DNA from: an uncultured Acidimicrobiales bacterium
GTDB taxonomy: Bacteria > Actinomycetota > Acidimicrobiia > Acidimicrobiales > SZUA-35
Direction of reading: 5' to 3'
Assembly (NCBI GenBank): GCA_938029215.1
Contig: CALHFG010000093.1
Coordinates: forward strand, 1-64,000
DNA: 64,000 nt
Shown here in pieces: positions 31,838 through 48,416 of the stretch (position 1 is the stretch's first letter; each line of letters opens with the position of its first letter). The position numbers and the translations under genes were made by a program. The notes beneath the pieces are model-generated. The model had not been told where the DNA came from, ran no database searches, and saw only the letters and a program-made list of their open reading frames with translations.

Positions 31838-32314
31838 TTAGCCTGCCAGTTTGGCTTCGAGCTTGTCGATGGCCATCTTCCAGCCGCCGGCCCCGGGGGA
31901 GTCCTCGGGAACACCGACGTGGGTCATGACCATCTTGGTTCCGCCGTCAGCCGCACTGAGTTCGACAACGACCTGGGTCTCCATCGGAGTTCCCGCGGGC
32001 ATCCCCATGGACTCCGGTGTGAGTGGTGTGCCGTCGGCATCGCACAGCGCATCGGTATACACCAGCCGTGACGTTGGCTCGACCTCGGTGAACGTGCCGG
32101 TGAACCACATCTCCATCGGCCCGTTGGGGGTTTCCATCGCCATGCAGATCAACCGTTTGCCGCCGACCTGAACGTCCATGTCTGCCGTGGGAATGCTGGC
32201 ACCCATGGGGCCGTACCACGAGCCGAAGTGCTCGCCTTCGGTCCACATCTGCCACACCAGTTCGATAGGTGCGTCGAAGGTTCGTTCGATCACTGTTTGC
32301 GGGATTTCACTCAT
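31838..32314 (-). CDS. SRPBCC / AHSA1 family protein
   Basis: VIERTFDAPIELVWQMWTEGEHFGSWYGP...WKMAIDKLEAKL; ATGA overlap with upstream arsR-like gene. Confidence 0.9.
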   Translation of the reverse strand: MSEIPQTVIERTFDAPIELVWQMWTEGEHFGSWYGPMGASIPTADMDVQVGGKRLICMAMETPNGPMEMWFTGTFTEVEPTSRLVYTDALCDADGTPLTPESMGMPAGTPMETQVVVELSAADGGTKMVMTHVGVPEDSPGAGGWKMAIDKLEAKLAG

Positions 32315-32667
32315 GGTTGAGTCTCTTTCTGCTTGCCTTGTAGTTGTTCTAGATAGGTGTCGAGGCGGTCGAAGCTGGCTTCCCAGACCGCACGATATTG
32401 CTCGGCCCAGTCCGAGACTTCTTGGAGCGGTGCAGCGTCGATGCGGCACGGCCGGTATTGAGCTCGCTGGGTCTGGGTAATGAGTCCGGCCCGCTCCAGC
32501 ACCTTGATGTGCTTGGATATCGCCGGTAGCGACATGTCGAAGGGCTCGGCGAGTTCGTTGACACTGGCTTCACCATCGACGAGGCGACCAAGAATCGCCC
32601 GCCGAGTTGAGTTTGCGAGTGCGGCAAACGTTGCGTCGAGACGGTCATCGATCGTTGCGGTTGTCAT
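32311..32667 (-). CDS. ArsR-family HTH transcriptional regulator
   Basis: FAALANSTRRAILGRLVDGEASVNELAEPFDMSLPAISKHIKVLERAGLI. Confidence 0.93.
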   Translation of the reverse strand: MTTATIDDRLDATFAALANSTRRAILGRLVDGEASVNELAEPFDMSLPAISKHIKVLERAGLITQTQRAQYRPCRIDAAPLQEVSDWAEQYRAVWEASFDRLDTYLEQLQGKQKETQP

Positions 32668-32844
32668 GCGTGGCCTCGCTTTCTCGAAGTTGCCGATTCT
32701 CGATCGATCATGATTAACCTTTGGGTTAATTAACTGATCAGTAAACTATGGCTACCCGAGGCCCGTGTCAAGCCCAAAACGAGAACTGGTGCCCGGCCCA
32801 CCGGTTCGGGTGGTCGGACACCAGTAGTTGGACCGGTGCGTTGG

Positions 32845-33405
32845 TCAGCAGGCTCGGCCGGCCATCCCCGCCATCTTGGTGACGATGTCAGCATCGTCTG
32901 CGGTAGCGACTTCGGCATCGAAGATTCCAGGGCGACGAGCTCCATCGCCAAATGCCTTGATGCCGTGGTAGGCACCAGCAGCAAGATCAGACGGAACAAC
33001 CGGCGTCTGATTGAGGGCGGTCGCAAGGTCCCAGGTGTGGACGGTGACATCCATGGTCATGATCTGCAGTGAGTTGTCGAGTGGTTGTTCTCCACCGAAA
33101 CCCTGAACGATCGTTTGGAGCGCGCCCGGCTGATCAAGAGCGGCCAGCACTGCATCTCTCGCCTCGGCCCACGACTCCTGTGGGTTGGCACCCGCAACCT
33201 CGGCCTCTGCCATCTCTGCGGGTCCATCGGCGCCGGCGGCCTGGCTACGGACGCGTTTCAGGCCAAAGATCGTGTGTCCCAAGACCTCGCGGGCACTCCA
33301 AGCCTCGCACGGAGACTGGGCGTCCCAGTCGCTATCGGAGGCCCGATTGACCACGGCATCCATCGCATAGATCGCCTTTGTGTAGTTTCGAAGATTGTCG
33401 CTCAT
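32845..33405 (-). CDS. TIGR03086-like / DinB-like metal-binding protein (mycothiol-dependent maleylpyruvate isomerase fold)
   Basis: VVNRASDSDWDAQSPCEAWSAREVLGHTIFGLKRV...MTMDVTVHTWDLATALNQ. Confidence 0.85.
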   Translation of the reverse strand: MSDNLRNYTKAIYAMDAVVNRASDSDWDAQSPCEAWSAREVLGHTIFGLKRVRSQAAGADGPAEMAEAEVAGANPQESWAEARDAVLAALDQPGALQTIVQGFGGEQPLDNSLQIMTMDVTVHTWDLATALNQTPVVPSDLAAGAYHGIKAFGDGARRPGIFDAEVATADDADIVTKMAGMAGRAC

Positions 33406-33476
33406 GGCGTCAGTACATCAGCGAGTGGAAGCTCTGGCAACGGGGAGTCTCTTCTTGGGCTTGCGGGTAGTTTCGA

Positions 33477-34598
33477 GTGATGGCTGTTCGGGTGGGTGTT
33501 TTTGGGACGAGTTGGTGGGCGGACACGATGTATCTGCCGCCGCTGACCAACCATCCGGATGCCCAGGTTGTTGCGGTGTGTGGACGTCGAGCGGAGCCCG
33601 CCGAAGAGTTTGCGTCCCAGTGGGACATCCCACATTGGTTCACCGACCCAGAAACGATGTTGCAGGAGGTCGAACTGGACGCCGTGGTTATCGCTACCGC
33701 GAACGACAGCCACCACCCGCTCGCACTATTGGCCCTGCAGCACGGATTGCACGTCTTGTGCGAAAAGCCGCTGGCACTCGATGCAACTCAAGGGGCCGAA
33801 ATGGTCCAAGCCGCGGCGGCGTCGAATGCGATCACATTGGTGCCGTTCACCTATCACTACATGCCGGTTAACCAGTGGGTTCAACGGCTGGTGGCGGAGG
33901 GCTACGTGGGCAGGCCGCTGCACGCGAACCTGCGGTACTACACCGGCTTTGGATTCGACGACAGCTACTCGTGGCGATTCGATCGAGAGATCGCGGGTTC
34001 GGGAATCATTGGTGACATCGGGTCCCACTTCATCCACCTCGCGCGCTTTTTGCTAGGAGAGGAAGAAACATCAATCTCGTGCATGGCGTCCACCTTCACC
34101 GAACGCCCGGCCCGCCCCAACGGCACCGAGTATGAGCGCCTGGAAGACAGCGCGGCCATGAACATCCGGTACCGATCTGGGGCGTATGGAATCATCCAGG
34201 TTAGTTCAGTCTGCTGGGAGGGAACCCCGTTTGGGCAGACCCACCATCTTGAGATACACGGAGATGCTGGGACAATCTATGCCACCTGCGACTGGGACAC
34301 GGTCCAAGAGGTTCGCGGTGTGAAGCGTGGCGAGGACGGGGGACCGCACGCTCTCCCGATCCCTGATGACATCTGGAATGGCGTGCGCCGCGACACTGTC
34401 CACAACACCTATCGGGACCTGTTCCGCAACACCGATGTCATGACCCGCGGCTGGGTGACCGCGATTTCTGAGGGTCGACCAATCTCGCCCGACTTTGCCG
34501 AAGGGCAGTCGATCCAGCGGGTCCTTGACGCCGCAGTCGAGAGCGCCGCCACGGGAGGGTGTCCTATCTCGTTGGCTCAACCCGAGGAGCAGAGTTAA
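33477..34598 (+). CDS. Gfo/Idh/MocA family NAD(P)-dependent oxidoreductase
   Basis: RVGVFGTSWWADTMYLPPLTNHPDAQVVAVCGR...HVLCEKPLALD (CEKP). Confidence 0.92.
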   Translation: MMAVRVGVFGTSWWADTMYLPPLTNHPDAQVVAVCGRRAEPAEEFASQWDIPHWFTDPETMLQEVELDAVVIATANDSHHPLALLALQHGLHVLCEKPLALDATQGAEMVQAAAASNAITLVPFTYHYMPVNQWVQRLVAEGYVGRPLHANLRYYTGFGFDDSYSWRFDREIAGSGIIGDIGSHFIHLARFLLGEEETSISCMASTFTERPARPNGTEYERLEDSAAMNIRYRSGAYGIIQVSSVCWEGTPFGQTHHLEIHGDAGTIYATCDWDTVQEVRGVKRGEDGGPHALPIPDDIWNGVRRDTVHNTYRDLFRNTDVMTRGWVTAISEGRPISPDFAEGQSIQRVLDAAVESAATGGCPISLAQPEEQS

Positions 34599-35029
34599 GG
34601 AGACTCGAGCAGCTCCTTCAGCCGTTGATAGTCGGCCTTCACCGACCGCCGGACCAGAAGCTTCGTCAACGGGTTGAAAAGTTTCATCAGGCCACCCGGC
34701 TCTCCGGCCACAATGGCCCTCACGACACAGCTTTCGTTCGTCGTTGGCGTGACGGCGCGCGTTATGTCCAACGGGAAGGTGCTCTTGGTGGAGATGATGC
34801 GAATGTGGCGCCCCGGTTCGAACTCGGTGACCCGGAAACTACTCAAGATCTCCTTGCCGCCGAATCCTGCGACCTGGTCGTAGGTGGACCCCACCGCAAT
34901 CGGCGGAGCGCTTGTCCACACACACGATTGCATCCCCTTCTGCCACGTGGTGTTCAGGCTCATGTCGCTGACTACCTCAAACACTTCGCTTGCTGGCCGG
35001 TCAATCGCAATATCGGTCTGGAGGCGCAC
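34595..35029 (-). CDS. SRPBCC (polyketide cyclase/START-like) protein
   Basis: IAIDRPASEVFEVVSDMSLNTTWQKGMQS... pattern. Confidence 0.8.
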   Translation of the reverse strand: MRLQTDIAIDRPASEVFEVVSDMSLNTTWQKGMQSCVWTSAPPIAVGSTYDQVAGFGGKEILSSFRVTEFEPGRHIRIISTKSTFPLDITRAVTPTTNESCVVRAIVAGEPGGLMKLFNPLTKLLVRRSVKADYQRLKELLESP

Positions 35030-45758: not shown

Positions 45759-45872
45759 GAACCCTGGTTGCCGGGGTTCTGAACGGCAGCGGTTGACGTG
45801 AACGACAAATGACCGTACATTTGCACTAAGGGATGTGGCGTGTGCCACTCAAACCGCAAAGGCATCGATGTC

Positions 45873-47246
45873 ATGATCTTCGAACAGCACTACTTGGATT
45901 GCCTCTCACAGGCGTCGTATTTCATCGGCGACGAAACGACCGGGCGGGCGATCCTGGTCGATCCGCGCCGCGACATCGAGCCGTATCTTGAAACGGCGTC
46001 GCAGCATGGAATGACGATCGAGATGGTCATCGAAACCCATCTCCATGCTGACTTCCTGTCTGGTCATCTTGAGACCGCTGCGGCGACCGGGGCCACAATC
46101 GCCTTCGGGTCGAAAGCTGAGACCGAGTTCGAGTCACGGAAGCTGGCCCATGGTGAGCGCATCAACCTCGGCGAGGTGGAGCTCGAAATCCGCCACACAC
46201 CGGGTCACACGCCGGAGTCGATCAGCGTCGTCGTTTATGAGAACGCGCAGGATGAGGTGCCGTATGGTGTCTTGACCGGCGACTGCCTCTTCATCGGCGA
46301 CGTCGGTCGGCCGGACCTTCTTTCTTCTGTCGGAGTCACGTCGAACGAGCTCGCCGGCCAGCTCTATGACTCGCTTCACGAGCAGCTGATGACCCTGCCC
46401 GACGAGACCCGGTTGTACCCCGCCCATGGTGCGGGATCGGCATGCGGTAAGAATCTGTCGAGCGACACCGTTTCTACCATCGGTTGCCAACGCAAAGACA
46501 ACTACGCCGTCCAGCCCATGAGCAAAGATGAGTTCATCGAGGTGGTGACCGCGGGCCAAACCGCTCCTCCTGCGTACTTCAGCTTCGAAGCGGTGCTGAA
46601 CAAGCAGAACCACGGCGTCCTCGACCCCACCGAAGCTCCTTCGGTTCTCTCCCTCGAAGACGTACTTCGGCATCAGGCTGAGGGCGCCGTCATCCTCGAT
46701 ACCCGCGAACCTCCAGTGTTCGCCCAGGGTCACCTGCCCGACTCGATCAACGTTGGTCTATCGGGTCGGTTCTCCGAGTTTTCCGGAGGCATCATCTCAC
46801 ACGATGTGCCGATCGTCCTCGTCACCGAGGAAGGGCGCGAGCTCGAGTCTCGCGTTCGACTGGCCCGGATCGGGTTCGACAACGTCGTCGGTGCCCTCGA
46901 TAGGTCCGTCTCGGCGATCGAAGGGTCAACCCTGTCGGTGATGCCACGGGTCGATGTCGAAGGTTTGATCCAGGCTCGAGCCTCGGTGGAAGATCTGCAG
47001 TTGGTCGATGTTCGGCAACCGGGTGAAACCGCCAACGGCACGGTGGAGGGGGCGATCGTGATCCCGCTCACACAGCTCAACACTCGCATCGAAGAACTCG
47101 ACATGGACCGCCCAACGATCGTCTATTGCGCCGGAGGTTTCCGGTCCATGATTGCGGCCAGTCGAATGAAGGAAGCCGGGTTCGCTGACGTCTCTGACCT
47201 CATTGGTGGCTACGGAGCGTGGAGTTCCCAGATGGTCTCGGCCTGA
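45873..47246 (+). CDS. MBL-fold hydrolase (ETHE1/persulfide dioxygenase-like) fused to two rhodanese domains
   Basis: THLHADFLSGH metal site; rhodanese-like domains, the last with IVYCAGGFRSMIAA. Confidence 0.92.
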   Translation: MIFEQHYLDCLSQASYFIGDETTGRAILVDPRRDIEPYLETASQHGMTIEMVIETHLHADFLSGHLETAAATGATIAFGSKAETEFESRKLAHGERINLGEVELEIRHTPGHTPESISVVVYENAQDEVPYGVLTGDCLFIGDVGRPDLLSSVGVTSNELAGQLYDSLHEQLMTLPDETRLYPAHGAGSACGKNLSSDTVSTIGCQRKDNYAVQPMSKDEFIEVVTAGQTAPPAYFSFEAVLNKQNHGVLDPTEAPSVLSLEDVLRHQAEGAVILDTREPPVFAQGHLPDSINVGLSGRFSEFSGGIISHDVPIVLVTEEGRELESRVRLARIGFDNVVGALDRSVSAIEGSTLSVMPRVDVEGLIQARASVEDLQLVDVRQPGETANGTVEGAIVIPLTQLNTRIEELDMDRPTIVYCAGGFRSMIAASRMKEAGFADVSDLIGGYGAWSSQMVSA

Positions 47247-47336: not shown

Positions 47337-48416
47337 GTGCTCACGACCGGTGTCCTTTCTTCCGACCAGCTGGCTTACATGGGCTGGGAATTGAAACCCG
47401 AGGGACTCTGTCGGGCCGACCGTTGCGTGCCACTGCCAGCAGATATTGATCGCTCCGCCCTGCCGGCGGCCGTCGTCGCCGACCGCTTGGGGATGCCCAT
47501 CCTGACCGACCCGAACTCGGGCGTATCGGCGATCGGTCCCGAGGCTGGACAGCCTCCGCTGGCGTCTAACGTTCTACCCCCTCTCACGCTCGCAGACTTT
47601 GAGGGAAACCCGTTCGACCTCACCCAGATGCACGGACGTAAGTCGCTTCTCATGGCGTGGGCGTCGTGGTGAGGCTGCCGTGACAGCCTGCCCGGGTGGC
47701 AGGCACTGAATGAAGAAACCGCCCCGCTTGGCTTGGACATCGTTCCGATCTCGCTCGACATCGACCCCGAGCTGGCGCGTTATTACACCGGCAAGGCGAC
47801 TGCGCTGACCCACCTGATCGATACCGATCACATCACCACCGAGGCGCTCGGCTTCACCAACGTTCCCATGGCGCTCTGGGTCGACGAGCACGGCATCATC
47901 GTGCGCGGCCCCGAAAGCGCATCGGTGGAGCGGTCATCGCTTAAAGATATGGAGATCGACGAGTCATGGCCCGAGCGCCTCAAGAGTCAGCTCTCGGTAG
48001 CGAAGTCGATTCCCTCGAACCCGGACGCGTACCGGGCCGCCGTACTGGACTGGGCCCGAAACGGATCAGCTTCGAAATTTGTGTTGAGCGAAGCCGAGAT
48101 CGTTGGCCGGTTGTCACCTCGGCACCGCGATGAGGCCGAAGCGGTAGCTGCATTCGAGCTTGGCCAGTACCTCTATCACCAGGCGGGCGGTGGAGCCCCA
48201 GGGGTGAGTGCCGCCCGGAGCTGGTGGCAAAGAGCTCACGACCTCGATCCCGACAACTGGACCTACAAGCGGCAAGCCTGGGTTTTGGTAACCACCGCAG
48301 AGGGGCAGCCGCCTGACCTCATGCAGGGACCCAACGATGTGTTTAGCGGCAACTGGCTCGACGATGTGATCGCAAACGGTGGGGGAGAAGCGTATTCGAC
48401 CCCTTCCGGGATCTAG
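47337..48416 (+). CDS. ResA/redoxin-like thioredoxin-fold protein; candidate selenoprotein with in-frame TGA (47670-47672) read as Sec in WASW-U-GCR
   Basis: ORF-track entries 47337..47672 and 47733..48416 are in the same frame; no other stop lies between them; the joined translation ...SLLMAWASW[U]GCRDSLPGWQALNEETAPLGLDIVPISLDIDPEL... is continuous redoxin-like sequence. Confidence 0.82.
47682..47708 (+). promoter_or_regulatory. Candidate bacterial SECIS hairpin downstream of the in-frame TGA
   Basis: GCCTGCC-CGGGT-GGCAGGC (7-bp perfect stem, 5-nt loop); loop G residues are 22-24 nt after the TGA. Confidence 0.65.

Follow-up and report, generated by a model that had tools for sequence, protein, structure and literature searches.

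Known UGC-containing redoxins

Redoxin selenoproteins with a U-G-C motif form an already catalogued family, which has been in print since 2008, when the GOS survey reported 46 Sec sequences of a 'Prx-like (UGC-containing)' selenoprotein that was relatively commoner in non-marine samples (PMC2398784). More recently, Table 1 of a 2026 review lists a 'UGC-containing TlpA disulfide reductase family protein' (PMC13188914). NCBIfam holds the curated long form as the equivalog NF041054 (WAxxUGC_long, "ResA-like WAxxUGC motif-containing protein"). A redoxin/TlpA fold with a U-G-C motif is common to the two printed entries and the locus described here; those entries consist of motif and counts only. 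Our literature search found no paper on 'WAxxUGC' or on Acidimicrobiia selenoproteins.

The locus lies in a window (the whole stretch of DNA that was analysed, 64,000 nucleotides) from an uncultured Acidimicrobiales bacterium. To what is in print it adds an invariant pair of N-terminal cysteines (CxxxxC) and a C-terminal region that resembles TPR, as well as the lack of a visible signal peptide or membrane anchor and of conserved gene neighbours.

A redoxin gene split by one in-frame TGA

On inspection of the open reading frames of the window, two on the forward strand, 47337-47672 (GTG start, ending in TGA at 47670-47672) and 47733-48416, were found to share one frame. The 20 codons between them (47673-47732) contain no stop, and the second frame is called from 47733 because this is where the first start codon (TTG) past the TGA lies. 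The sequence-only reading of this DNA was therefore right that the TGA is the sole stop ahead of TAG 48414-48416. Reading through it yields a complete gene of 359 residues (47337-48416), with GTG as its start, or possibly ATG 47379, and TAG as its stop.

The joined protein matches NF041054 over nearly the whole profile (residues 13-354, profile positions 14-349 of 354) with 379.9 bits, above the curated cut-off of 300 (E 1.3e-113), and has at 47658-47678 the sequence WASW-TGA-GC, which corresponds to the WAxx-U-G-C motif by which the family is defined. The ResA-like WAxxUG family named in the sequence-only reading does exist, then, and the window protein, as WASWUGC with Sec at the same position, shows no real difference from it, although its identity to the relatives found is at most about 65%. 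Judged by coding-likeness on both sides of the TGA, this pair was third among the 404 TGA-separated pairs of open frames in the window; the test for a homologous family that extends across the TGA covered this pair, and the ranking of the other candidates is by coding-likeness. It is because both flanks match one curated full-length family that the joined frame goes beyond chance. In comparison with the nearest relatives, conservation of the codons 3' of the TGA equals or exceeds that of the codons 5' of it, with an excess of third-position changes. What standard annotation cuts in two is, from its sequence, almost certainly a single gene whose active-site TGA would be read as selenocysteine (residue 112). 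Genes of this kind are easy to overlook in the MAGs of actinobacteria, as standard gene calling breaks them up or shortens them.

Selenocysteine and cysteine share one column

An NF041054 member above the cut-off was found in 34 of 149 genomes from the order, and the matches listed above the cut-off have exactly one internal TGA each. Further family loci came from Acidimicrobiales, Ilumatobacter and other Actinomycetota, and from single MAGs labelled Acidobacteria and Chloroflexota. The sequence-only reading had proposed a comparison of homologues at the position of the TGA, and exactly there the 62 aligned rows show TGA (55 rows, four of which are longer versions of loci that also stand in another row) or Cys (seven rows) and no other residue, three fragments that lack the column having been left aside. 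Sequencing error as the source of the TGA can be excluded in practice, because about 50 genomes, each assembled separately, have the same TGA.

SelA is present in 55 of the 61 genomes that hold the family. Five of the six genomes lacking it (G002, G022, G023, G112 and G141) have the Cys form; the sixth, G001, has the TGA form and is 84% complete, so that its lack of SelA probably reflects incompleteness. Counted by form, SelA accompanies the TGA in 53 of 54 genomes and is missing from five of the seven genomes with Cys (Fisher P 2e-5, not corrected for phylogeny, the TGA form of unfetched loci being taken from the count of one internal TGA per match). The collected set represents a clean case in which Sec/Cys exchange tracks the presence of selA within one order. 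Two Cys-form members, L068 and L071, occur in SelA-positive genomes (G144 and G047, respectively), which indicates that loss of the pathway does not by itself account for the switch between Sec and Cys.

The least credible alternative is a pseudogene, in which a Cys redoxin was broken by a nonsense mutation from TGC or TGT to TGA: only one base separates these codons and Cys homologues do exist, but recurrence of the TGA in the same column of 55 aligned rows, which represent numerous families within the order as well as one Chloroflexota MAG, refutes it, and both the protein-level constraint still acting on codons 3' of the TGA and the association of the TGA form with SelA speak against it as well.

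Selenocysteine machinery of the source genome

The source genome (3.94 Mb in 144 contigs, 94.6% complete) contains all four of the genes, selA, selB, selC and selD, whose presence the sequence-only reading had suggested checking. SelA is encoded at C46:15434-16510 (338.8 bits), with SelB directly downstream, starting at C46:16570 (279.6 bits), and SelD at C80:13983-14864 (272.4 bits). The tRNA-Sec gene lies at C58:11659-11750 (65.3 bits versus a gathering score of 47), and its anticodon is TCA according to ARAGORN.

One may also consider that the TGA is read as Trp, Gly or Cys, the genetic code being altered or the stop simply read through, and codes in which TGA is a sense codon are well established. 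However, the rhodanese-type gene just upstream terminates with a TGA (47244-47246), the only alternative residue at the column is Cys, the analogue of Sec, and the genome has a full Sec pathway. On these three grounds a changed code was rejected, and we consider any such reading very improbable.

A SECIS-type hairpin within the coding region

Selenocysteine insertion, the reading that we prefer, calls attention to a hairpin that begins 13 nt after the TGA, GCCUGCC-CGGGU-GGCAGGC (47686-47704, forward strand, loop 47693-47697), with a fold energy of -14.4 kcal/mol. It lies 3' of the UGA and inside the coding region, the location by which a SECIS is recognised here. All 51 TGA-form sequences examined have a CUGCC-NGKNU-GGCAG hairpin, or a paired variant of it, at a constant distance from the TGA, with CGGGU, CGUGU, AGGUU and GGUCU among the loop variants. 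The collected set provides a well-constrained SECIS consensus for the order.

Because the LPxWQ residues encoded by this stretch are themselves conserved, we compared its codons with codon use in the rest of the same genes. The Leu codon is CTG in 50 of 51 sequences, where 19.0 would be expected; CCC was found in 40 of 51 (expected 23.1), GTG in 23 of 27 (12.3) and CAG in 49 of 50 (37.1), which points to strong constraint on the choice among synonymous codons. The Ala codon that follows CAG (47703-47705 in the window) is GCA in 26 of 38 cases, against an expected 4.5; its third base falls outside the hairpin, so that the constraint may extend beyond the stem-loop. Compensatory changes were also seen: L023, the sole sequence with TTG, is also the sole one with CAA, two synonymous changes that keep the stem paired and leave the protein unaltered, and L061 has a second double change in the stem. 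With so little variation in the stem, covariation counts remain small, and part of this low variation is accounted for by the conserved LPxWQ residues. In the seven Cys copies, CTG is found in three and the stem Pro has been lost in four.

Compared with shuffled versions of itself, the 45-base stretch taken whole showed no extra stability (z -0.10), and the isolated 23-base hairpin gave z -2.26. Neither the window nor the SECIS stretch matched any Rfam family, even at E up to 10. Genome-wide, the loop pattern TGCCNGKNTGGCA had nine matches versus 13 in the reversed control, so that selenoproteins cannot be located by this pattern alone; the site in the window is the only match where a TGA is flanked on either side by a long open frame.

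It is very likely that SelB directs Sec insertion at this UGA via the in-gene SECIS. With a ribosome at UGA 47670, the complex of SelB, GTP and Sec-tRNA, recruited by the hairpin at 47686-47704, would insert selenocysteine, and when selenium is lacking translation would end at the UGA and leave a fragment of 111 residues. Support at the level of sequence comes from the in-frame TGA, homology, Sec/Cys exchange, the complete Sec machinery, constraint on the hairpin and the predicted fold, and with all of these in hand we regard 47337-48416, with high confidence, as a genuine selenoprotein gene and a member of the NF041054 family.

Fold and probable chemistry

Pfam places Redoxin and AhpC-TSA over residues 79-190, within a thioredoxin-fold domain of residues 79-192 (47571-47912) that has an Asn-Val-Pro (cis-Pro) motif at Pro177. 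An AlphaFold2 model built from 49 relatives has a mean pLDDT of 94.6 and a pTM of 0.91; its best solved match in Foldseek is ResA (2f9s, E 8.9e-9, rmsd 1.8), the best solved folds overall being of ResA/TlpA/CcmG type. Likewise, the best sequence matches among solved chains are thioredoxin-family or TlpA-type proteins. The proposal of a thioredoxin/ResA-type fold for the joined protein is in agreement with all three analyses.

Aligned to 3kcm and ResA-type chains, the TGA residue takes the place of the N-terminal catalytic Cys and Cys114 that of the resolving Cys, the spacing between the two being one residue shorter. The sequence-only reading was thus correct in placing the TGA at the nucleophilic Cys, but the motif, Sec112-Gly-Cys114 (47670-47678), is of the C-x-C type rather than the C-x-x-C of ResA. 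The protein has in common with ResA, TlpA and CcmG the thioredoxin fold, the position of the active site and the cis-Pro, whereas it has U-x-C where membership of ResA/TlpA calls for C-x-x-C, and carries in addition an N-terminal CxxxxC module and a TPR-like C-terminal region. ResA and TlpA are exported or anchored proteins. Here, no strongly hydrophobic segment that could act as signal peptide or N-terminal membrane anchor was found in the first 60 residues (maximal 19-residue Kyte-Doolittle mean 1.0, a crude test), and the WAxxUGC product is probably cytosolic.

From fold, motif and homology, redoxin chemistry is likely: the selenolate of Sec112 would attack an oxidised substrate (a disulfide, sulfenate or peroxide), Cys114 would resolve the intermediate as an Se-S bond, and an electron donor would then restore the enzyme. 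For the reaction itself we lean towards disulfide exchange. A selenoprotein with mainly peroxidase activity, akin to peroxiredoxins, rather than thiol-disulfide exchange, is a less probable choice, though one suggested by Pfam AhpC-TSA and Redoxin matches in 49 of 49 members, by weak GSHPx matches in 34 of the 49, and by the name 'Prx-like' given to the UGC type in 2008 (PMC2398784). Against it stand the ResA/TlpA/CcmG type of the closest solved folds, the thioredoxin-family and TlpA-type proteins that head the solved-chain matches, and the placement of Sec at the N-terminal Cys of a CxxC site, with the resolving Cys two residues on.

Modules outside the redoxin domain and gene neighbourhood

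The N-terminal module (47337-47561) has the signature GWxxKPEGxCxxxxCVPL, in which Cys25 (47409-47411) and Cys30 (47424-47426) are invariant in 49 of 49 relatives. Its residues have no Pfam match and are modelled by AlphaFold2 as short strands. Altogether, the residues invariant in the 49 sequences are C25, C30, U/C112, G113, C114, L118, W121, D162, P177, W239 and R312. The Cys25/Cys30 pair may act as an internal relay or form a structural disulfide. An alternative with nearly even chances is that this hairpin serves as a metal-binding or structural element and plays no part in an electron relay: in the model both cysteines lie in, or next to, neighbouring short strands (23-26 and 29-31), but their strict invariance together with U112/C114 in 49 sequences, across Sec and Cys forms, fits a working redox pair just as well.

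The C-terminal region (47919-48413) is helical (model helices 201-352) and TPR-like at around residues 270-304: TPR_2 of Pfam was found in 29 of the 49 relatives, and profile matches include TPR chains. It may serve as a docking surface for a partner. As a more tentative proposal, WAxxUGC proteins could be distinct three-module redox enzymes, in which the N-terminal CxxxxC hairpin feeds electrons to the U-G-C site and the TPR-like region selects a dedicated partner, in a cytosolic Sec-dependent pathway of Acidimicrobiia not described biochemically. The invariant CxxxxC together with U-G-C constitutes a concrete biochemical hypothesis for the family.

A search of plasmids for the family gave only weak TlpA-like matches and one fragment resembling the C-terminal region. 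The latter, on a Rhodococcus qingshengii plasmid (NZ_CP063236.1, L098:6001-6288), is 45% identical to residues 213-315, has no thioredoxin domain, and overlaps a small 'hypothetical protein' of that plasmid.

Ninety bases upstream of the selenoprotein gene, 45840-47246 encodes a metallo-beta-lactamase fold with rhodanese domains, of the persulfide dioxygenase/sulfurtransferase type, and downstream lies a dienelactone hydrolase gene. Over 21 related loci the flanking genes do not recur, except for a response regulator beside L056, and we therefore consider neither neighbour to be linked to the selenoprotein gene. As neighbours are not common to the relatives, genome context gives no hint of the substrate.

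Other putative selenoprotein genes

The Sec pathway of the source genome is predicted to serve other genes too. In a formate dehydrogenase alpha gene (FdhA, L094:1741; contig C26, match 32829-34706), the canonical Sec site, DSCNRT-U-HAPSVVG, has an in-frame TGA, and after it comes a hairpin whose loop, GGUCU, also occurs as the loop region in the SECIS of E. coli formate dehydrogenase. About 50 N-terminal profile positions of FdhA are absent from the frame that bears the TGA. The second gene (L097:1717; contig C142, match 32027-32479) encodes a UGSC-like protein with the TGA in MGC-U-GSC, followed by a GC-rich hairpin; it scores 48.6 bits against UGSC_fam NF041046, below the cut-off of 125, and may represent a divergent branch of that family.
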